Below, in pieces: positions 13,472-23,446 of a stretch of DNA of 37,874 bases. Under the pieces are notes generated by a model, which saw only the letters and a program-made list of their open reading frames with translations, was not told the DNA's origin and did not search any database. This DNA comes from Pseudomonadota bacterium. GTDB taxonomy: Bacteria; UBA10199; 2-02-FULL-44-16; JAAZCA01. Numbering within the stretch: position 1 is the stretch's first letter; each line of letters begins with the position of its first letter. The translations under genes and the position numbers were made by a program. The DNA is taken from positions 1-37,874 of the forward strand of contig JAFGMW010000035.1 of NCBI GenBank assembly GCA_016927275.1. The letters run 5' to 3'.

Positions 13472-13675
13472 ATGCCGTTCTTCCTCATGGCATCTCTGTT
13501 TCTCGTCTTTGCGACCGGCTTCGTCCTGCTAGTGCCGTGGGCCCTCGCCTTCAGGTGGGCGGCGGATTCAGGCGCTGCCGTCGCTGCCTTCGTCCACATC
13601 GCGGCGTTCCTCTTCTTCATGGGGATCGCCCTGGCCTTCGCGCTCGGCGGCAGGGCCCTTGACCGTGAGGGGTGA
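13472..13675 (+). CDS. Short NuoA-like membrane subunit
   Basis: A 67-residue protein with two membrane helices, first gene of the complex I-like operon. It resembles the C-terminal two thirds of NuoA. FVLLVPWALAF lies where NuoA has the FDVEVxFLYPWA helix, and the second helix ends in GGRALDRE, where NuoA has a RKGALxW-type end. The normal first helix and loop are missing (NuoA is usually 115-150 residues), and the conserved acidic pair of the second helix (D-x-E) is absent. It is followed after one base by the nuoB-like gene. Identity rests on position, topology and the PWA and GALD motifs. An alternative is an unrelated small subunit occupying the NuoA site. Confidence 0.6.
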   Translation: MPFFLMASLFLVFATGFVLLVPWALAFRWAADSGAAVAAFVHIAAFLFFMGIALAFALGGRALDREG

Positions 13676-13676
13676 G

Positions 13677-14132
13677 ATGTCCCTGGATTTCTTCGGAGCG
13701 CGGGCAGGGGACCTCGTGGCGTGGGCCAGGCGCAGGGGCCTGGCTGCGGTCGAGCTCGCGTCGTGCTGCTGCGGATGCACGGATGCGCGGCCCTGCCGCG
13801 GCTTCATGTTCCCCACGGTCGAGAGGCCGGAGGAGGCGGACCTGCTCATCGTCTCCGGCCCCGTGGGCGCGAAGAGGGCAAGGCTCTTGAGGGATTTCTA
13901 CGACAGGATGGGCGAGCCCAGATGGGTGATCGCGCTCGGGACGTGCGCGTCGTCAGGCGCGCTTGCCGCTCCCTACGCCGGGAACTGCGGCGCCGATCGC
14001 GCGGTGCCGGTCGACGTGCGCGTCCCCGGCTGCCCGCCCGACGCCGGGGAGCTCGTGCGCGCGGTCGAGAAACTCGCATCCATGATCAGAAGGCCCGCTC
14101 CGGTGGAGGAAGATGATCAGAAATCCGATTGA
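13677..14132 (+). CDS. NuoB-like subunit (cluster N2 protein) with cysteine-rich loop
   Basis: A 151-residue member of the NuoB / small hydrogenase subunit family, the peripheral-arm protein that binds the terminal [4Fe-4S] cluster N2. Ligand positions are retained: a tandem Cys group C30-C32, C90 in GTCASSG and C119 in VPGCPP. EADLLIVSG and PRWVIALGTC are canonical. Unusual: the loop after the tandem cysteines, normally carrying the RFG and SPRQ motifs near the quinone, is replaced by a shorter segment with extra cysteines (C34, C40). The ATG at 13677 is preceded by GAGGGG; an upstream in-frame TTG is less likely. It overlaps nuoC by 20 bp. Confidence 0.88.
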   Translation: MSLDFFGARAGDLVAWARRRGLAAVELASCCCGCTDARPCRGFMFPTVERPEEADLLIVSGPVGAKRARLLRDFYDRMGEPRWVIALGTCASSGALAAPYAGNCGADRAVPVDVRVPGCPPDAGELVRAVEKLASMIRRPAPVEEDDQKSD

Positions 14133-14553
14133 GGCGGTGGGGGATGGGATCCGCGGGGCGAAGGTGAGCGGCGAGGGGGCCGCCGCGCGCGCCGAGGTGC
14201 CCCCCGAGAGATGGGAGGATGCGGCCGCGATCCTCAAGGTGCAGTCGGGCCTCTCCGCCCTCATGGACCTCTTCTGCATCGACCGCGAGGGGGAGGGGCT
14301 GCGCTTCGAGATCGTGGCGAAGCTCAGCGACGGCGGCGGGGGGTCTCGATTCACGCTCACGGCGCGCCTCCCCGAAACCGGTTCGGAGATCGCATCGCTG
14401 GTCAGGGTGCACCCGGCTGCGGAGTGGTACGAGAGGGAGTGTTTCGATATGTTCGGCATATCGTTCAGGGGCGGCCCTGCGCATAAGAGGATACTCACGG
14501 AGGACGATTTTCATGGTCATCCGCTGAGGAAGGATTTTCGAGGGGTATCATGA
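14113..14553 (+). CDS. NuoC-like (30 kDa) subunit
   Basis: A 146-residue homologue of NuoC, a structural subunit of the peripheral arm that packs against NuoD. The family signature is clear near the C-terminus: W-Y-E-R-E-C-F-D-M-F-G-I-x-F, then H-K-R-I-L, then DFHGHPLRKDF. The N-terminal half is shorter and more divergent than usual. Translation is coupled at both ends: it starts inside nuoB, and its TGA overlaps the nuoD ATG (ATGA). Because a NuoC-like protein is characteristic of complex I and its closest relatives, it supports an origin from that branch. Confidence 0.88.
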   Translation: MIRNPIEAVGDGIRGAKVSGEGAAARAEVPPERWEDAAAILKVQSGLSALMDLFCIDREGEGLRFEIVAKLSDGGGGSRFTLTARLPETGSEIASLVRVHPAAEWYERECFDMFGISFRGGPAHKRILTEDDFHGHPLRKDFRGVS

Positions 14554-15722
14554 CCGGCTCCGCCGCAGATGCGCATGAGATCTCGATCCCGGCCGGCGAT
14601 CCCGGTTCCGGCATGCCGTTTCGCCTTGTGATCAAGGCCCGAGGCGCCCGGGTCGAGGCGGCCCGGTCCGAGATCGGCTTTGCGCACCGGGGCCTCGAGA
14701 AGCTCGCCGAGTCCATGACGTGGCATTCGGCCAGGGCGGTCGCGGAGAGGGCGGGCTGCGCGTCGCCCGGCATCGCCGGCACCTGCTGCTGCATGGCGGT
14801 GGAGTCCCTCTTCGGCGTGGAGGTCCCGGCGAGGGCGAAATGGCTGCGCACGATCCTCTGCGAGGCGTGGAGGATACGCGAGGGGCTGTCGCACGCGGGC
14901 CGCACGCTCGCGCACGCCGGTCTCCCCTCGCGCGCCGCCCTCCTCCTCTCGTGCAGGGATTCGGTCGAGGGGTGGGTGCGCGCCTCTTTCGGCGCCTCCG
15001 GCTCCTCATCCAGGATAGGGGGCGTGGCGCGCGACCTGGGCGGCGCGGAGAGCAAGAGGGGCCGTGCGCTCATGCGGAGGGTGAGGGACGAGGCAGGCGG
15101 TGCTGCCTCTGCCCTTGCGGGAGACCGGATCTTTTCGGACAGGACGCGAGGAGTCGGCGTGATTTCGGCCGACGCCGCCTCCGCATGGGGCGTAACGGGG
15201 CCATCCCTTCGGGCCGCGGGGCAGGCAAGGGACCTGAGGAGGGACCTGCCGTATCTCATGTACGCCGGGCTCGATTTCGAGGTCCCGGTAGGGGCGGAGG
15301 GGGACGTGTTCGACCGGACCGTGGTCCGGCTGCTTGAGTCGACGGAGTCCGCGCGCATAGTGGAAGAGGCGATGGCGATGATGGAGCCGGGGCCGCTGAC
15401 TGCAAAGGAGGGGGCGGTCGTCCTCCCCCCTGCGCACGAGGTGTACGGCGGCGGTGAGGGCTTGGCGAGGCACAGGCGCATCATGGCAGGCAAGCAGCGG
15501 CTCCCGGCCGGGGAGGGATGCGCATTGGTGGAGGCGGCTTCGGGCGAGATGGGGTTTCACCTGGTCTCCGACGGCTCCCCCCGGCCTTACAGGTTCAGGG
15601 TGCGGTCGCCGTCGTTCGCGCTCTGTCAGGCGGCCCCGGTGATTCTGAAGGGGTGCGCGGTCGAGGACGTGCCCATGATCGTTGCGAGCCTCGGGGCCTC
15701 GGCCTCTGAGGCGGACAGGTGA
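14550..15722 (+). CDS. NuoD-like (49 kDa) subunit without quinone-site or NiFe-site residues
   Basis: A 390-residue homologue of NuoD / hydrogenase large subunit. The fold signature is visible: IGFAHRGLEKLAE (42-54), AVESLFGVEVPARA, RIGGVARDL, the DVFDR region, and RSPSFALCQ near the end. The N-terminal HPSTHG motif is replaced (GSGM), so the quinone-site His (His38 of Thermus Nqo4) corresponds to Gly21. In an ungapped block ending in AVES, the quinone-site Tyr87 corresponds to Cys70. The hydrogenase CxxC pairs that bind NiFe are also absent, and the usual SLDPVMGEVDR end reads SLGASASEADR. It therefore appears to be neither a quinone reductase nor a hydrogenase subunit. The ATG overlaps the nuoC stop. 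Confidence 0.88.
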   Translation: MTGSAADAHEISIPAGDPGSGMPFRLVIKARGARVEAARSEIGFAHRGLEKLAESMTWHSARAVAERAGCASPGIAGTCCCMAVESLFGVEVPARAKWLRTILCEAWRIREGLSHAGRTLAHAGLPSRAALLLSCRDSVEGWVRASFGASGSSSRIGGVARDLGGAESKRGRALMRRVRDEAGGAASALAGDRIFSDRTRGVGVISADAASAWGVTGPSLRAAGQARDLRRDLPYLMYAGLDFEVPVGAEGDVFDRTVVRLLESTESARIVEEAMAMMEPGPLTAKEGAVVLPPAHEVYGGGEGLARHRRIMAGKQRLPAGEGCALVEAASGEMGFHLVSDGSPRPYRFRVRSPSFALCQAAPVILKGCAVEDVPMIVASLGASASEADR

Positions 15723-15732
15723 GGGGGATCGA

Positions 15733-16791
15733 TTGGACCCGATAGAGATCTGGACGGCGGCCCTCTCCGCGGCGCTGGCGCTCGCGGTGCTGTGCGGGCT
15801 CATGCGCGCCGCCTCGGCGCTCGACCGCTGGGCCGCATCCCCCTCCGGCCGCTGCGGGCCGGCGTACGGCACAGGCCTCGTCCGCGCCGCGGCCCTGGCG
15901 CTCTCGCTCGTGTCCAGGGGGCCGAAGAGGAAGCCGGGCGTCGCCGCGGCGTTCGCATTCGCGCCGGTCGCGGCGCTCGTCGCGGCGCTCGCCGCCGCAG
16001 CGCCTGTGCAGCTTGCGCCCGCGATATCCGCCGGCGCCTGGCGGTTCTCCTTCACGGTCTGGGAACCGGGCGCGGGGCTTCTTTTCTCCCTCGCCATGGT
16101 CTCCCTGTGGGCGTGCGCGTCGTTTCTCTCCATGGCCGGCGAGGGCGACCGCGCCTCGCGCGCGGTGGCGGTCGGATCGGCCGCGGCGTACTTCTCGTTT
16201 TTTCCGGCGATGATGCTCGCCCTGGCCTCAGTCGTCCTCCTCTCGGGGAAGATCGATCCGGCGGGGCTGGTCGCGGACCAGGGCGATGCGATCTGGAGAT
16301 GGAACTGGGCGAGGCAGCCGGTCGCGTTCGCCATATTCGCGGCCAGCTCATGCATGGCCCTGCGCAGGGTCGAGAGCGGCCGCTTCGCGGGGCAGGATGT
16401 GGCGCGCATCCATCCCCAGACGGCCGCTGCCGCGGGATTTGTACGGCGCCTCTCGTTCAGCGCGCTCGCGGCCGCGCTCGCTGCGGTCGGATGCTCCGCG
16501 TTCCTCGGCGGCTGGCAGCTGCCGTTTCTGCCTGTGTCGTCCCTGGCCGAATCCCTCCGGGTGATCGTGCCGGCCTGGGCGGTGGAGCCGTCGGTCGCCG
16601 TCGCGGGCCTTGCGGCGATGGCGGCTAAGAGCGCCCTGCTCCTTGTGCTGTTCGCATTCGCGCGGGCGTCCATCGCCTCCCTCAGGGGGGACCGGCTCGT
16701 GCGCTTCGCGTGGAGGGCCCTCATGCCTTTGGCTATGGCAAATCTTGCTGCGACCGCCTATATTGTGACCGTCCTGTCGAAGGGGGATTAG
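15733..16791 (+). CDS. NuoH-like membrane subunit, divergent
   Basis: A 352-residue protein with eight or so membrane helices, in the NuoH position between D and J. GRCGP (40-43 region) and the WEPGAGLLFSLAMVSL block fit NuoH topology. The signature motifs are badly eroded. The loop that normally reads A-E-T-N-R-x-P-F-D-L-x-E-x-E-S-E-L is replaced by a basic stretch around residues 210-240 (MALRRVESGRFAGQD...), and the Glu in the S-Y-E motif is lost (SFFP). Those acids line the quinone chamber and the E-channel in complex I. Translation starts at TTG 15733 behind a GAGGGGG ribosome binding site. The stop overlaps the next GTG by one base. No nuoI gene follows, unlike the usual order. Confidence 0.8.
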   Translation: MDPIEIWTAALSAALALAVLCGLMRAASALDRWAASPSGRCGPAYGTGLVRAAALALSLVSRGPKRKPGVAAAFAFAPVAALVAALAAAAPVQLAPAISAGAWRFSFTVWEPGAGLLFSLAMVSLWACASFLSMAGEGDRASRAVAVGSAAAYFSFFPAMMLALASVVLLSGKIDPAGLVADQGDAIWRWNWARQPVAFAIFAASSCMALRRVESGRFAGQDVARIHPQTAAAAGFVRRLSFSALAAALAAVGCSAFLGGWQLPFLPVSSLAESLRVIVPAWAVEPSVAVAGLAAMAAKSALLLVLFAFARASIASLRGDRLVRFAWRALMPLAMANLAATAYIVTVLSKGD

Positions 16792-17288
16792 TGGAGGCGA
16801 TCGTCTTCTACATCCTTGCGGCGGCCGCGACCTCATCGGCGGTCATCGCGCTCTCCAGGCGCGACCCGCTCAGCTCCGCGGTCTGGCTCCTGGGCCTCGT
16901 GATACCGGTCGCTGCCATCATGGCGCTGATGCGCGCGCCGCTGGCGGCGTCGGCGTTTCTCATCGTCGCCGTGGGATCGACCCTCTCGTTCTGCCTCTAC
17001 GTCCTCATGCTCATGGAGCCGGGCAGGAGGGCGAGGGCCCGGCAGATAAAATTCGGCAAGGTGCTCGCGGCCGTGGCCGCCGGCTACCTCGCCATCGTCA
17101 TGTCGATAGCGGTCGCGGCGCCCCCGTTTTTTGCGGCGCCGGCGAGCGGCGTGCACTTCGATTCGCCGCTCACCGTGGGCAAGGCCATCGCCTCCGGGTA
17201 CGCGCTCGCCTTCGCGTTATCCGGGCTCATGCTCATGGCCGCGGCCGCGGCCTCGGTGGTAATGGCGGGCAGGGAGGGAGAGGGATGA
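16791..17288 (+). CDS. NuoJ-like membrane subunit
   Basis: A 165-residue protein with five predicted helices. The family N-terminal pattern (SRNPxxSAL) appears as SRRDPLSSAV. The helix that has a conserved Y-V-G-A segment with a pi-bulge in NuoJ reads AVGSTLSF here. The C-terminal Y-x-x-x-F-E-x-A-S helix reads YALAFALSG, so its glutamate is Ala142. It starts with GTG at 16791 overlapping the nuoH TAG, with AGGGGG upstream, and ends in a 4-bp overlap with nuoK. It follows nuoH directly, with no room for a ferredoxin-like NuoI. Confidence 0.82.
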   Translation: MEAIVFYILAAAATSSAVIALSRRDPLSSAVWLLGLVIPVAAIMALMRAPLAASAFLIVAVGSTLSFCLYVLMLMEPGRRARARQIKFGKVLAAVAAGYLAIVMSIAVAAPPFFAAPASGVHFDSPLTVGKAIASGYALAFALSGLMLMAAAAASVVMAGREGEG

Positions 17289-17590
17289 CGCTCACCCTTC
17301 AGCACCTGCTCCTGCTTTCGGCGGCCCTCTTCGCGATCGGCGCCGCGGGAGCGTGCGTGCGCAGGAACGTCCTCGTGGTGTTCATGTCGATCCAGACGAT
17401 GATGGCGGCGGCGATGCTCGCGATGGCCTCCTTCGCGCGGTGGAACCTCCTGCCGGAGGGCAAGGCGGCCATGTTCTTCCTGATAGCGGTGCTCGCCGCG
17501 CAGGCGGCGGCGGGGCTGGCCCTTCTGGTGGCGGTCTTCAAGAGATGCGGGACTGTGCACGGAGACGAGCTGAGGCTTCTGAGGGACTAG
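17285..17590 (+). CDS. NuoK-like membrane subunit with both key glutamates replaced by glutamine
   Basis: A 101-residue, three-helix protein of exactly the normal length and easily aligned with NuoK. LQHLLLLSAALFAIGAAG, the MSIQxM helix, the third helix (LAAQAAAGLAL) and the GTVHGDELRLL end all match. In E. coli NuoK the membrane glutamates E36 and E72 are needed for proton pumping; the matching positions here are Gln37 and Gln73. The rest of the protein is well conserved, so the change is specific rather than general decay. ATG at 17285 overlaps the nuoJ TGA. Confidence 0.92.
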   Translation: MTLTLQHLLLLSAALFAIGAAGACVRRNVLVVFMSIQTMMAAAMLAMASFARWNLLPEGKAAMFFLIAVLAAQAAAGLALLVAVFKRCGTVHGDELRLLRD

Positions 17591-17591
17591 G

Positions 17592-19577
17592 ATGCTCGAA
17601 CTCATATACAGCCACGTTAGCCTGCAGGCGATGATATGGCTCGTGGTCGCGATGCCGCTGGCCGCAGCCGCGGCGAGCGCGCTGGTCGCCGCCCTCTACT
17701 CGGGCAGCGAATCGCCGGGACCGAGGCCCCTGGTCTCGCTCCTGAGCGTCTGCGCGCCTCTCGGGTCCCTGGCCGCCACTGCGGTGATCTTCTTCACCCT
17801 GACCGGCTTCGACGCCGTCTCGCCCTCCGCCATCACCGGGCCTCTGTTCCGGTGGGCCGCGATACCCGGCTTCAGCGTGGACGTTGGGCTTCGCGTGGAC
17901 GAGCTGGCCATGTTCATGGCGGCGCTCGTGGCGGGCGTGGGGTTTCTCGTGCAGCTGTACTCGATCGGCGACATGTGGAACGACGACGGTTTCTTCAGGT
18001 ACCACGCCGTATCCTCGCTCCTCATATTCTTCATGCTGCTGGCGGTGCTCGCCGACAACCTGGTGCTGGCCATCGCAGGGTGGGAGGGGGTCGGGTTCTC
18101 ATCCTGCGCGCTGATCGGTTCCCGCAGGGGAGAGGGGGCCGATCTGCGCTCCGGGCTGCGCGCCTTCGCCATAAACGCGATAGGCGACGCCTCCCTGCTC
18201 GCTGCGGCGTTCGTGATATTCGGCGCCATGTCCGCCTCGGGGGCCGACGCGGATTCGGGCCTCTTCAACTTCGAGACCATGGAGCGCCAGGTCGCCTTCT
18301 TCATGCCCGTGGCCTCCGCCGTCGCCCTGCTCATATTCGGCGCCGCGGCGGCCAAATCGGCCCAGATCCCGCTGCACCTGTGGATGCCGGAGGCGGCGCT
18401 CGCACCGACCCCGGCCTTCGCCCTGATGGGCACGGTCACCACCGCGGCGCTCGGCGTCTACATGGTGATCAGGCTCAACTACATATTCGCGCTGGCGCCT
18501 GCCGCCCTCTCGGTCATGGCGTGGGCGGGCGCGGCATGCGCCCTCCTCTCCGCCACGATGGCGCTGGCCGAGAGGGACCTGCGCAGGATACTCGCCTATT
18601 CCACCGTATCCCAGTTCGGGCTCATCTACATGGCTGCGGGCATGGGCGCGTTCATCGCGGCCTCGTTCCATCTGGCGACGCACGCCCTCTTCAAGTGCCT
18701 GCTCGTGCTCTCGGCCGGCAGCGCCATAAAGGCCTCCTCCGGCGAGAGCGACGTCCTGTCGATGGGCGGGCTCGTGCGGAGGATGCCGATAACCGGATGG
18801 GCCTTCGTGGTCTCCGCCGCGGCGATGGCCGGGATCGCGCCCGCATCGGGCTTCTTCAGCGAGCAGGCGATACTGGGCAGGGCCTTCGAGCGGGGGCACG
18901 TCGCGCTCTGGATCATGGGGCTCGCCGCCCTCGGCGTGACCGCCTTCTACATCTTCAGGGCCGCGGGCGCGGTATTCTTCGGCGACAGCGCGCTGGACGC
19001 GTCGAGGTACAAGAGGGTGGCGGAGCCGTCCATGAGCATGGTGCTGGCCACGATGCTTCTAATCTCGCTTGTCGCGGGGGCCGGCTTCGCAGGGCTGCCG
19101 CATTGTCTGGGAGGCTCCGATTGGATAGGCGGCTGGCTCGGCACGCTCATACCGTCTGAGAGCGGCAGCGCGTTCTCAGACGGATCCTGCGGCACGTGGA
19201 TGGTCCTCGCGGCGGTCTTTCTGCTGTGGTCGGCGCACTTCGCCGTGCTCGGCTGGCTCATCTACGCGCAGAAGCGCGACTGGCCCGCCCGGGTGGCAAG
19301 GCGCATAAGGCCGCTCGCGCAGCTGGCGGCCAGGAAATATTACTTCGAGGAGATCTGCGGCCTTGTAATAGTCGGGCCTGTCGAGTGGTTCGCCCGCGTG
19401 ATAGTGAAGCGGGGGGTGGACAGGACCGCGATCGACGGGATAGCGGCGGGCGGCGTGGCGAGGACGGTGGGGCTCGGCGCCTCGATCGCGCGCGCCGCGC
19501 AGAGCGGCATGCTCTATCACTACATGCTCTATTTTCTCATCGGCGCCGTAGCGATAATCGCGCTGGTGGCGCTGTGA
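17592..19577 (+). CDS. NuoL-like antiporter subunit
   Basis: A 661-residue, multi-helix antiporter-like subunit. Pumping residues are present: Glu165 in GWEGVG (helix 5), Lys255 in AAAKSAQIPLHLW (helix 7), and the Lys in HALFKCLL. The helix that usually has ALIHAAT reads ALMGTVT, so its His is Gly280. The C-terminal KYYFEE motif and following helices suggest the long lateral helix that clamps NuoM and NuoN is retained. The ATG at 17592 lies one base after the nuoK stop. By conservation this is a potentially functional cation-translocating subunit. Confidence 0.93.
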   Translation: MLELIYSHVSLQAMIWLVVAMPLAAAAASALVAALYSGSESPGPRPLVSLLSVCAPLGSLAATAVIFFTLTGFDAVSPSAITGPLFRWAAIPGFSVDVGLRVDELAMFMAALVAGVGFLVQLYSIGDMWNDDGFFRYHAVSSLLIFFMLLAVLADNLVLAIAGWEGVGFSSCALIGSRRGEGADLRSGLRAFAINAIGDASLLAAAFVIFGAMSASGADADSGLFNFETMERQVAFFMPVASAVALLIFGAAAAKSAQIPLHLWMPEAALAPTPAFALMGTVTTAALGVYMVIRLNYIFALAPAALSVMAWAGAACALLSATMALAERDLRRILAYSTVSQFGLIYMAAGMGAFIAASFHLATHALFKCLLVLSAGSAIKASSGESDVLSMGGLVRRMPITGWAFVVSAAAMAGIAPASGFFSEQAILGRAFERGHVALWIMGLAALGVTAFYIFRAAGAVFFGDSALDASRYKRVAEPSMSMVLATMLLISLVAGAGFAGLPHCLGGSDWIGGWLGTLIPSESGSAFSDGSCGTWMVLAAVFLLWSAHFAVLGWLIYAQKRDWPARVARRIRPLAQLAARKYYFEEICGLVIVGPVEWFARVIVKRGVDRTAIDGIAAGGVARTVGLGASIARAAQSGMLYHYMLYFLIGAVAIIALVAL

Positions 19578-19590
19578 TCCGGAGGGGCGA

Positions 19591-21153
19591 TTGGCTGAGA
19601 TGATCTCGAGGGCGGCGGAGTTTATGTCGGCGCATATGGTGAGCGCGGCCGTGGCGCTGCCGCTGGCGGGCGCGATCGTCTCGCTCGCGATCCCGGCCGG
19701 GGCGAGGGCCGCGGCCAGGGTCGCCTCGGCGATATTCTCCGCGGTCGGCGCCGGGCTGTGCGTCGCCGCCTTCGCCAGGATCCGCGGCAGCGGGGAGATA
19801 GAGTTCGCGGAGATGGCGCAGTGGATACCGTCGCTCGGGATCTACTACAGGGTCGGGTTCGACGGGGTCTCGGGGCTGCTCGCGGCTGCAGCGTCGGCTT
19901 CGTGCTTCGGCTCCATCATATTTTCCCTGAGGCGGGAGGTCCCGAGGGAGCGCCTGTCGCTCGCCCTCATGCTCTTCGCCCAGGGGTGCCTCACCGGGAT
20001 ATTCGCCTCGCTCGACGGGTTCCTCTTCTACCTCTTCTGGAGCGGCTCGGCCGCTGCCCTGTGCCTTTTGACGGGGGTGTGGGGTGAGGGCGGGAGGATC
20101 GCCGCCGCTACGAAATTCATGGCGTTCGCAGCGGCGGGCAGCGCGGCTATGCTCCTCGCGTTCGCCTTCGCAGGGGCGAGCGCAGAGTCGTTCTACATCG
20201 TGGACTGGATGGCCCACCGGTTCGGCCTCTTCGACCAGATGTGGATGTTCTGGGCGCTCGCGCTGGCCTTCGGGGTCATGATGCCGATAGCCGGGCTCCA
20301 CACCTGGCTCGCGGATCTCTGCGAGCAGTCGTCTCCTGCGGGGGCGGCGCTCGCCGGGGGGGCGATGCTGGCTGCCGGCGCCTACGGATTCTTCAGGATC
20401 GGCATGCCGATAGCGCCGGTGGCGGTCGCGGTCTTCGCGCCCGCCATGTGCTGGCTCGGCGTGGCCGCGGTGTTCATGGGAGCCATGCTGGCCCTTGCCG
20501 AGAGGGATCTAGCGCGGATCGCGGCGGCGGTCTCGCTCTCGCAGATGGGGATCGTGCTGCTGGGTCTCTTCTCGCTCCAGTCCGTGGGGGTTTCCGGCGC
20601 GGTGCTGCTCATGGCGGCCAACGCACTGATAGCGTGCGGGGTCCACATGGTCTCGGGCACGCTCAGGGCGAGGGCGGGCGGCTCCGACCTGGCGAACGCA
20701 GGGGGGATATGGCGCGCGATGCCGGCCGTGGCCGCTGCGCTCGCCCTCTTTGCTGCCGCGGCGGTCGGCCTGCCAGGCCTCGCCGGATTCTCCGGCCAGT
20801 TCACGCTGCTGCTGGGCAGCTTTCAGGTGCGCACGCTGCACGCGTCGCTGGCCCTTGCGGGGCTCGCCATTCTGGCATCCGCGATCGCGGTCAGGGTGGT
20901 CATCGCCCTCTTCGGCAGGCGCGCGGCCGGGGATGAGCGGCGCCGGTCCGACGCTGGGCCGGCGGAGATCACGGCGATGGCCGCTATCGGGGCGGTGATC
21001 GTGCTGGCGGGCCTCTGGCCGCAGCCGCTGCTCGGCAGGATAGAGAGGCCTGCGGAGGCCTTTGTGAAGCTCTCGAAGAGGGTGGAGATGATAATCCCGG
21101 CGGGCCGTTCGCCGGTCCCGGATGAGGCGGCGCCCGAGGGGAGGGGCGAGTGA
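19591..21153 (+). CDS. NuoM-like antiporter subunit with pumping residues replaced
   Basis: A 520-residue protein aligning with NuoM along most of its length (LHTWLAD, AGAYGFFRI, AERDLARIAAAVSLSQMG, GLPGLAGFSGQFTLLLGSF). At the four positions essential or important in E. coli NuoM the residues differ: Ser151 for Glu144 (FWE to FWS), Met230 for Lys234 (FAVKMP to FGVMMP), Ala261 for Lys265, and Gln403 for Glu407. The helix with a conserved SHG reads ANA. The scaffold is well kept, so it probably still assembles. The TTG start at 19591 sits behind GGAGGGGCGA; an ATG at 19600 is the alternative. It overlaps nuoN by 4 bp. Confidence 0.9.
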   Translation: MAEMISRAAEFMSAHMVSAAVALPLAGAIVSLAIPAGARAAARVASAIFSAVGAGLCVAAFARIRGSGEIEFAEMAQWIPSLGIYYRVGFDGVSGLLAAAASASCFGSIIFSLRREVPRERLSLALMLFAQGCLTGIFASLDGFLFYLFWSGSAAALCLLTGVWGEGGRIAAATKFMAFAAAGSAAMLLAFAFAGASAESFYIVDWMAHRFGLFDQMWMFWALALAFGVMMPIAGLHTWLADLCEQSSPAGAALAGGAMLAAGAYGFFRIGMPIAPVAVAVFAPAMCWLGVAAVFMGAMLALAERDLARIAAAVSLSQMGIVLLGLFSLQSVGVSGAVLLMAANALIACGVHMVSGTLRARAGGSDLANAGGIWRAMPAVAAALALFAAAAVGLPGLAGFSGQFTLLLGSFQVRTLHASLALAGLAILASAIAVRVVIALFGRRAAGDERRRSDAGPAEITAMAAIGAVIVLAGLWPQPLLGRIERPAEAFVKLSKRVEMIIPAGRSPVPDEAAPEGRGE

Positions 21154-22637
21154 CGGCTGCGATCCTCGACATCGCACACGCGTGGTTCCCCGGCGCGGCG
21201 CTTCCGCTGGCGGTGCTCGCGATCGCCGCGGCCGCGGCACTGATCTCCTCCGCGGCGACCAGGGGCGCGGGCCGATGGGTCGACGCCGGGATCTCCGTCG
21301 CCGGGCTTCTGGCGGCCGCTGCGCTCGCATGGCGGACCTGGCCGGAGGCCGGGACCGCCGGGGCGGCGATCCTGATCACCGACCGGCTCGGGCTGGCCGG
21401 CATGATCGTGGTGCTTGCTTCGGCGGCCTGCTCGGCGCTCATATCGAGCCCTTATCTCGGGCACCGCGAGCGGACGGGGATCGGATTTTACGGCCTGCTG
21501 ATGCTCTCAGCCTTCGGCATGGCGGCGCTGTGCTTCGCAGGCGACCTCATCGCCATCCTCATCGCCATGGAGACCGCGTCGATCTCCCTCTCGGCGATGG
21601 CCGGCTACGCGCGCACCCGGCCGCAGTCGGTCGAGGCCTCGCTCAAGATGTTCATGATGTCCGCGTTCTCGACCGCGTTCTACTGCATGGGGCTGGCTTT
21701 CATATTCGGCAGCCTGGGCAGCACGTCGCTCGCGACCATCGCGGAGAGGTTCGAGTACGTCCTCTCCGGCGAGGGGAGGGGGATGTTCCTCTTCGGGCTC
21801 GCGATGGTGTTCTCGGGCCTTTCGCTCAAGGTCTCCGCTGCGCCGTTCCACTCCTGGGCGCCGGACGTGCTCGAGGGGTCGCCCATGCCCGTGTCGCTCT
21901 TCATCGCCACATCGGCCAAGGCAGCGGGCCTCGTCGCGCTCCTTCGCATCGCCATGGCTATTGCGGCCCCCGGCGGCGCGCTCTGGCACGGGCTCGCCTC
22001 CGCGGTCGCGGCAGTCACGATCCTGTGGGGGGCGCTGGCCGCGATGCGACAGGAGAATCTCAAGCGGATGCTGGCCTATCTCTCGGTCGCAGCCGGCGGG
22101 TTCATGCTGGCTGCGCTCCCTTCGCTGGCCCTTTCCCACGCGCCAATGGCGCGCGCCCTCCTCATGAACCTCGTGGCCTACTGCGTCTCGATGGTGGGCG
22201 CGTTCGCGGCGCTGGCCGCCCTGGCGCCGGGCGATGGGCTGGACTCGAGACGCCTGTGCGGGCTCTCCAGGCGCAGGCCCTGGGCCGCGGCCGCGATGTC
22301 GCTGTTTCTTCTCTCGCTCGCCGGCGCGCCTCCCACTCTGGGGTTTGCCGGGAGGTTCTATCTCGTGATGGAGGTTGCGCGCGCGGGCGACATAATGCTC
22401 GCGGCGGTGGTGTCGCTCGGCACGGCGATCATGTTCATCTGCGTCTTGAGGCCCATAGTCTCGATGTACATGAGGGAGGCCGGGGCGGCGCCCGCCCTTG
22501 AGGGGCAAGAGGCGGCAGGCGGGGGGTCGAACGTGCTCACCGGCGTCATGGCCGCAGCGGCGCTGGCGGTATCGGCCTTCGGCCTCTTTCCGCAGGACCT
22601 GATGGCCTTCGTCTACGCCTCCTCGGCCCTTTTGTGA
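21150..22637 (+). CDS. NuoN-like antiporter subunit
   Basis: A 495-residue protein, last subunit gene of the operon. Pumping residues are retained: Glu141 in IAMETASISLSAMAGY, Lys227 in SLKVSAAPFHSWAPD, Lys257 in SAKAAGLVALLR, with LEGSPMPVS in between. Near the C-terminus GFAGRF has Arg where family members have Lys. A low-complexity cytoplasmic loop (GQEAAGGGSN) precedes the last helix. It starts with GTG at 21150 overlapping the nuoM stop. Together with NuoL it is one of only two antiporter-like subunits here with intact ionisable residues. Confidence 0.92.
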   Translation: MTAAILDIAHAWFPGAALPLAVLAIAAAAALISSAATRGAGRWVDAGISVAGLLAAAALAWRTWPEAGTAGAAILITDRLGLAGMIVVLASAACSALISSPYLGHRERTGIGFYGLLMLSAFGMAALCFAGDLIAILIAMETASISLSAMAGYARTRPQSVEASLKMFMMSAFSTAFYCMGLAFIFGSLGSTSLATIAERFEYVLSGEGRGMFLFGLAMVFSGLSLKVSAAPFHSWAPDVLEGSPMPVSLFIATSAKAAGLVALLRIAMAIAAPGGALWHGLASAVAAVTILWGALAAMRQENLKRMLAYLSVAAGGFMLAALPSLALSHAPMARALLMNLVAYCVSMVGAFAALAALAPGDGLDSRRLCGLSRRRPWAAAAMSLFLLSLAGAPPTLGFAGRFYLVMEVARAGDIMLAAVVSLGTAIMFICVLRPIVSMYMREAGAAPALEGQEAAGGGSNVLTGVMAAAALAVSAFGLFPQDLMAFVYASSALL

Positions 22638-22693: not shown

Positions 22694-23446
22694 ATGCCTC
22701 CCATGATAAAGCCGGGCGCCAGAGGCGGGCTCACCACCCCCACGGGGCTGGACGACTTCCTGGACGAGAAGAGCCTGCGCGGCCAGGTGGTGGGCAGCTG
22801 GGGGTTCAACGCCAACATCGACTTCACGCGCATGAGCGCTGAGCAGTCCAATGTCTGGTTCTTCGAGCAGATATTCAATTTCCTCCGCTCCTTCTTCGGG
22901 CTCGTCGTCCCGGACAACATGGAGATAAGCACCACCGGCGGGAAGAGGCAGGTGACAAGGGACAACCTCAACCAGATGACCTTCCTCGACGAGCTCATGC
23001 TCGTCATGAAGGGGCTTTCGGAGCCGATCTGGTGCATAAGGCTCAACCTCAACATCGTGGGGTTTCTCAGGACCGAATACGATCCCGACAAGCCGGTGAG
23101 GCTGCACATCCAGGAGCCGGCCAGCTTCATCGTGTGGGGTGGGCCGGACGAGACCGGGTTCCAGACCTTCTCGCTGGGATATCGGCTCTTCGCGGAGCAG
23201 AAGATGAAGGGGGAGCACACGCTCCTGTGGTCAATGAACCAGCCGCTGCTCGAGAAGGGGCTCAGGAAATGGGAGCGCCAGTCGCGCCGCAGGATCGAGG
23301 TCGTGCGCGGAAACTCCGACGACCTCCCGCTCTATCGCCACGGCTTCTCCAAGCCGGCGCCCGCCCGCCCCCGCGCGAAGCCGAAGCCCAGGGACGAGGG
23401 CCCCGTGGTCGACACCCTGCCGGATTTTGATGATTTGATGTTGTAG
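22694..23446 (+). CDS. Unknown soluble protein, 250 residues
   Basis: No family recognised. The N-terminus (MIKPGARGGLTTPTGLDDFLDEK) is followed by a mixed alpha/beta region with aromatic clusters (VWFFEQIFNFLRSFFG). A basic segment comes next (RKWERQSRRRIEVVRGN), and the tail is Pro/Lys-rich and ends in acidic DFDDLML. There is no signal peptide or membrane helix. The ATG at 22694 or the one at 22703 could be the start. It lies 56 bp after nuoN on the same strand and may belong to that transcript, which makes it a candidate accessory factor, but nothing in the sequence shows this. Confidence 0.65.
   Translation: MPPMIKPGARGGLTTPTGLDDFLDEKSLRGQVVGSWGFNANIDFTRMSAEQSNVWFFEQIFNFLRSFFGLVVPDNMEISTTGGKRQVTRDNLNQMTFLDELMLVMKGLSEPIWCIRLNLNIVGFLRTEYDPDKPVRLHIQEPASFIVWGGPDETGFQTFSLGYRLFAEQKMKGEHTLLWSMNQPLLEKGLRKWERQSRRRIEVVRGNSDDLPLYRHGFSKPAPARPRAKPKPRDEGPVVDTLPDFDDLML

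Follow-up and report, generated by a model that had tools for sequence, protein, structure and literature searches.

The complex I operon of a Pseudomonadota bacterium (genome G000, 1.81 Mb) encodes a NuoK subunit with glutamine at both positions of its buried glutamates, and we infer from the sequences of its subunits that the complex has lost the ability to couple NADH:quinone redox chemistry to proton pumping. A canonical pump is not expected because single variants in Paracoccus strongly impair or block catalysis, and here four NuoM sites are replaced together with sites in NuoK, NuoH and NuoD. Among the explanations that we weighed, a retained, non-pumping complex is favoured over slow decay of the operon, its main rival, and over a reduced ion pump based on NuoN.

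The window analysed is one entire contig of this genome, 37,874 nucleotides long, from an assembly of 119 contigs. Three further genomes of the family were compared: G001 (JAJZQH, SKS1.bin41), which represents the sister genus, G002 (JABGOS, Deltaproteobacteria co234_bin13) and G003. The genus of G000 is known from one genome, and no relative nearer to it than G001 and G002 turned up when GTDB 220 contigs were scanned; as the nearest relative belongs to another genus, saturation of synonymous sites is expected at such distances.

NuoK and its operon

By homology NuoK is a member of its family (PF00420 score of 66.1 bits, cut-off 26.1), and its functional hallmark, the glutamate pair E36/E72, is replaced by Gln at both sites. 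The protein aligns without gaps both with E. coli NuoK and with 29 relatives, which places Q37 and Q73 of its own numbering, each encoded by CAG, in the E36 and E72 columns, and alignments with NuoK from PDB structures (T. thermophilus, cyanobacterial, mycobacterial and E. coli) give the same columns. These alignments bear out the preliminary description, which had read both glutamates as Gln and had called them nearly invariant within conserved surroundings. Both sites could be aligned in 70 NuoK sequences, that of E. coli among them, and 67 of these have the Glu/Glu pair (67 of the 69 other than G000); the remaining three are Gln/Gln in G000, Ala/Met in G003 and Val/Glu in G046, a distant genome (L256 = G046:C66:21863-22156) in which E36 is Val and E72 is kept. 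Ten columns are invariant in 18 canonical relatives, and those changed in G000 are exactly the two glutamates, with none of the eight others affected (1 in 45 if random). NuoK is 62% identical to its Glu/Glu counterpart in the sister genus and shows no overall acceleration, with 10 unique changes in G000 against 9 in the sister. The idea that the Gln pair might be fixed in the clade did not survive alignment with the family genomes, since NuoK of the sister genus and of G002 is Glu/Glu.

The genes of the operon are listed in the table below and run in the order A'-B-C-D-H-J-K-L-M-N, where A' is a nuoA remnant; nuoJ, nuoK and nuoL overlap or abut, with an ATGA overlap at 17285-17288 and the nuoL start at 17592. 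The NADH module of a 14-subunit complex I is missing, as nuoE, nuoF and nuoG do not lie between nuoD and nuoH; there is no full-length NuoG elsewhere in the genome, and PF01512 matches are found on other contigs, mostly within larger open frames. When compared with NuoA of G001, the remnant has lost TM1, the TM1-2 loop and the FDVE carboxylates (FDVE reads FATG). Both G001 and G002 have a full B-C-D-E-F-G-H-J-K-L-M-N set with NuoA and NuoI nearby or elsewhere.

Features of the nuo operon and its flanks in the window
Feature	Positions	Strand	Evidence
BrnQ-kinase fusion, 809 aa	10996..13425	-	PF05525 (branched-chain amino-acid carrier) and PF00871 (acetate/butyrate kinase)
nuoA remnant	13472..13675	+	PF00507 E=1.2e-6, only profile positions 38-98 of 99
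nuoB, diverged	13677..14132	+	quinone-side RFGAE/RFSPRQ segment lost, four N2-cluster cysteines kept
nuoC, well conserved	14113..14553	+	PF00329 E=1.4e-30; 3/24 invariant positions changed
nuoD, N-terminal half degenerate	14550..15722	+	PF00346 E=8e-68
nuoH, strongly diverged	15682..16791	+	PF00146 E=1e-19 in two pieces
nuoJ, diverged TM3 region	16791..17288	+	PF00499 E=8e-14, alignment
nuoK with E36Q and E72Q	17285..17590	+	101-aa frame, PF00420 (Oxidored_q2/NuoK) E=2.5e-18
nuoL, 661 aa	17592..19577	+	no indel relative to three relatives
nuoM, axis residues replaced	19591..21153	+	alignment to relatives and E. coli structures
nuoN	21150..22637	+	alignment to relatives and E. coli structures
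250-aa frame	22694..23446	+	no Pfam family match

Several features of the surroundings were observed along the way. The frame 3' of nuoN is conserved at the same position in a number of relatives from different parts of the class (G002, G003, G029). In three genomes of the family (L102:1254-2174, L035:399-1382, L036:12383-13375) the nuo cluster contains a protein of some 330 aa that looks secreted, placed between nuoB and nuoC; it still adjoins nuoJ in the reduced cluster of G003 and is not part of the G000 cluster. In the intact operon of G001 (L102:4001-8000, L034:1-6762), nuoE and nuoF are fused in one frame and an apparent type I restriction-modification cluster is inserted between nuoF and nuoG.

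Directly upstream of the G000 operon, in divergent orientation, lies the BrnQ-kinase fusion, from which amino-acid fermentation is plausible. The organism looks anaerobic: heme-copper oxidase is absent from the family and from the neighbouring family f2, and the UbiA matches that were typed in the two families included no heme O synthase. All family members have a gene for a MenA-like prenyltransferase, and MenD is absent from the family as well as from some relatives with an intact complex I; on these grounds quinone loss is a weak candidate for the cause of the changes.

Proton axis, quinone site and Fe-S wire

We mapped the residues of the membrane arm to E. coli numbering by alignment to relatives and structures. 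In NuoM, the changes are E144S, K234M, K265A, H322Q, H348N and E407Q; in NuoL, H254G, K399E and D400Q are accompanied by retention of E144, D178, K229, H334, H338 and K342; and in NuoN, where E133, K217, H224 and K247 are kept, H305A and K395R are seen. The charged axis of complex I is broken, with 0 of 2 listed sites kept in NuoK, 1 of 7 in NuoM, 6 of 9 in NuoL and 4 of 6 in NuoN. Gln variants at the Paracoccus equivalents of NuoM E144, K234, K265 and E407 each singly reduced NADH:quinone catalysis severely or blocked it, and no uncoupling was seen in any membrane-arm variant of that study (PMC9802314). All four of these NuoM sites are replaced together in G000.

The quinone-site features of a 14-subunit complex I (NuoD His38/Tyr87/Asp139 and the NuoH motifs) are likewise replaced. 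His34, His38, Tyr87 and Asp139 of NuoD (T. thermophilus numbering), which we take to be quinone-site residues, read D, G, C and H, respectively. NuoH, with 41 of 65 invariant positions changed and 15 of 22 ionisable ones, has lost the E-channel glutamates as well as the quinone-site motifs AExxRxPFDLPE and RWTLPRFRYDQ. Reversion of NuoD to a [NiFe] hydrogenase can be ruled out, since the CxxC motifs L1 and L2 are missing: the alignment has RAGCAS at the place of L1 and SEADR at that of L2, and a paired-Cys NiFe motif is present at neither.

The ligands of the Fe-S clusters, in contrast, are retained. NuoB retains all four N2 cysteines with 34 of 61 class-invariant positions changed. An apparent loss of nuoI, suggested by a TIGR01971 score under the cut-off in G000, was dismissed, as the syntenic locus L250:5558-6058 (G000:C97:29557-30057), which like nuoI elsewhere in the order lies apart from the nuo operon, holds a diverged nuoI whose product keeps all eight cluster-ligand cysteines, with 27 of 67 invariant positions changed. 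For the two proteins pooled, 12 of 12 Fe-S ligand cysteines are kept while 61 of 128 invariant positions have changed (p = 0.00025, for 12 sites only), and the predicted Fe-S wire N6a-N6b-N2, formed by NuoI and NuoB, is intact.

A second lineage and the constraint on the genes

In G003 the cluster (L036:6464-12332) is reduced to nuoJ-K-L-M-N, its B, C, D and H genes having been lost, and the only NuoD/NuoH-type matches of this genome are those of a separate group 4 hydrogenase (L103). A tree of ribosomal proteins (2879 sites) pairs G000 with G001 and G002 with G003 at 98-100% support, and the NuoL tree gives the same pairing at 96-99%; the species topology was not recovered by NuoM, NuoK or NuoJ, probably because of long-branch effects. 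Since each degenerate genome has an intact sister, the losses in G000 and G003 are independent, and since both NuoK glutamates went in this second lineage as well, their loss is genuine and has happened more than once. The ionisable sites listed for NuoK, NuoL, NuoM and NuoN number 24; 13 are lost in G000 and 9 in G003, with 8 in common (a manual calculation gives a hypergeometric p of about 0.011).

This second case also bears on data quality. An error at the two NuoK sites is very unlikely because the assembly is 96% complete with 0.44% contamination and many other key sites in the operon are altered; sequencing error as a general explanation is ruled out by dozens of coherent changes and by the second case. 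The wider artefact reading, in which the contig was wrongly assembled or sequenced or is foreign DNA binned by mistake, and which the fragmentation of the assembly would allow, is one to which we attach almost no weight: the changes occur in open frames, an independent case exists in another genome, the NuoL tree places the genome as the ribosomal one does and contamination is low.

The rates of change bear on the constraint acting on the genes. Branch lengths for G000 and its sister are 0.198 and 0.141 for ribosomal proteins, 0.83 and 0.14 for NuoL, 1.30 and 0.30 for NuoM, 1.03 and 0.45 for NuoN, 2.20 and 0.06 for NuoD, and 0.39 and 0.26 for NuoK. Of 302 invariant positions in NuoJ to NuoN, 100 are changed in G000 and 103 in G003, as against 0-9% in eleven control genomes, a level of change that, at the sequence level, is strong relaxation of function. 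Stop codons are nevertheless absent from nine G000 genes, where 7.5-14 would be expected if only the excess amino-acid changes are simulated as neutral, and none was seen in G003, where about 10 are expected under neutrality. NuoL is 661 aa long and ungapped in all four family members, and GC by codon position is still strongly coding (GC3 0.81-0.91, GC2 0.45-0.60). The data show that the constraint presumed to keep proton transfer has been lost, with the constraint on the fold apparently continuing.

The preliminary description had gone further, taking the Gln pair as a sign that selection had favoured a NuoK that no longer transfers protons. What stands of this is that both glutamates were lost from a conserved NuoK and lost again, to Ala and Met, in G003. 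However, the NuoK change sits in a wholesale dismantling, and ionisable sites are weakly enriched among the losses in G000 (OR 1.75, p=0.04), an enrichment that G003 lacks; because of this, we read the change as a loss of the proton-transfer constraint and not as positive selection, which the data do not by themselves show. The pattern specific to NuoK (2/2 Glu against 0/8 others, and a Glu pair lost twice) leaves room for selection against proton transfer, which is thus partly supported.

Interpretation and known systems

Our favoured reading, to which we give slightly less than an even chance, is that complex I of G000 is retained as a membrane-anchored, non-pumping complex for electron transfer through Fe-S clusters, which would be fed by a soluble donor at NuoI and would pass its electrons on near N2 to an acceptor other than a quinone. 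The complex would survive as an 11-subunit type, non-pumping or at most weakly coupled, in which electrons enter at NuoI, for instance with ferredoxin as the soluble donor, and pass from N2 to a non-quinone acceptor, donor and acceptor both being guesses, and in which the membrane arm (NuoN, NuoL and NuoK) would be kept for a role in fold and assembly. Once the pump was uncoupled, the NuoK Glu-to-Gln changes may have become harmless, or even advantageous in that they would block a leak of protons. The hardly changed NuoC, the full set of Fe-S cysteines, the open frames and the loss of the same key sites in G003 argue for such retention; the change of about one third of the invariant J-N positions, whatever their chemistry, counts against it, and the extreme divergence of NuoD and NuoH fits slow decay as well. 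Under slow decay, a substantial possibility although one that we hold to be well short of even, the family turned anaerobic, complex I became useless and its operon is eroding under relaxed selection, with the NuoK Gln pair as a passenger and G003, in which J-N is all that is left, as a later stage. Decay of this kind would explain the share of invariant J-N sites changed in both genomes relative to the controls, the long NuoL branch beside a modest ribosomal one (0.20 vs 0.14), the absence of heme-copper oxidase from the family and of heme O synthase from its typed UbiA matches, and the gene losses of the G003 cluster, but it is difficult to square with genes free of the stops expected, a NuoL without indel, the retention of every Fe-S cysteine, the lack of overall acceleration in NuoC and NuoK, and key sites that are the same in two lineages.

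It is also conceivable, if rather doubtful, that complex I has become redox-only, its Fe-S wire being under purifying selection, its quinone site turned into the site of another acceptor and its proton axis shut off in NuoK and NuoM, with G003 keeping a bare J-N arm in which mostly the same sites are closed. If true, this would be a natural uncoupling of complex I, with the membrane arm kept twice for a non-pumping role. A reduced ion pump, in which NuoN and part of NuoL move H+ or Na+ through another redox drive or by passive antiport and NuoK and NuoM are inert spacers, seems improbable to us. It draws on the ionisable core of NuoN (E133, K217 and K247 kept in both degenerate lineages, K395 changed to Arg in both) and on NuoL K229, D178, H334, H338 and K342, also kept in both; yet the elements that would couple the redox site to NuoN are gone (the NuoH and NuoA carboxylates and the NuoK glutamates), as are the NuoL exit residues K399/D400 in G000.

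A lineage that lacks the NuoK pair and the NuoM axis and keeps its frames and Fe-S ligands offers a natural experiment on the role of the membrane arm without pumping, and the parallel case of G003 makes this question testable by comparison. Were the operon only decaying, it would document the order in which complex I is dismantled in an anaerobic lineage, the first parts to go being the NADH module together with the residues of the quinone site and the proton axis, and the most durable ones NuoC, the Fe-S ligands and the core of NuoN.

Compared with canonical 14-subunit complex I (E. coli Nuo; G001 and G002), the G000 system has the same A-B-C-D-H-J-K-L-M-N order, subunit fold families and N2/N6a/N6b cysteines, and it shares a NuoI outside the operon with the sister genomes; it differs in having no NuoE/F/G, a truncated NuoA, replaced quinone-site and most proton-axis residues and a Gln/Gln NuoK. 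The absence of NuoEFG, the NuoI-NuoB Fe-S chain and ferredoxin as a candidate donor are features in common with the 11-subunit complex I of Desulfitobacterium hafniense and photosynthetic NDH-1, but the 11-subunit complexes of anaerobes conserve the quinone and pumping features (PMC11238625) that G000 has lost. MrpC is homologous to NuoK and by nature carries two His in place of the glutamate pair (PMC7419157). In G000, by contrast, NuoK has Gln and not His and lies among nuo neighbours, which rules out membership of an Mrp antiporter, and none of the Mrp-specific E/F/G/B subunits was seen in the nuo cluster. A precedent for complex I relatives in which electrons pass from an N2-like cluster to a non-quinone acceptor is provided by the energy-converting group 4 hydrogenases and by MBX.
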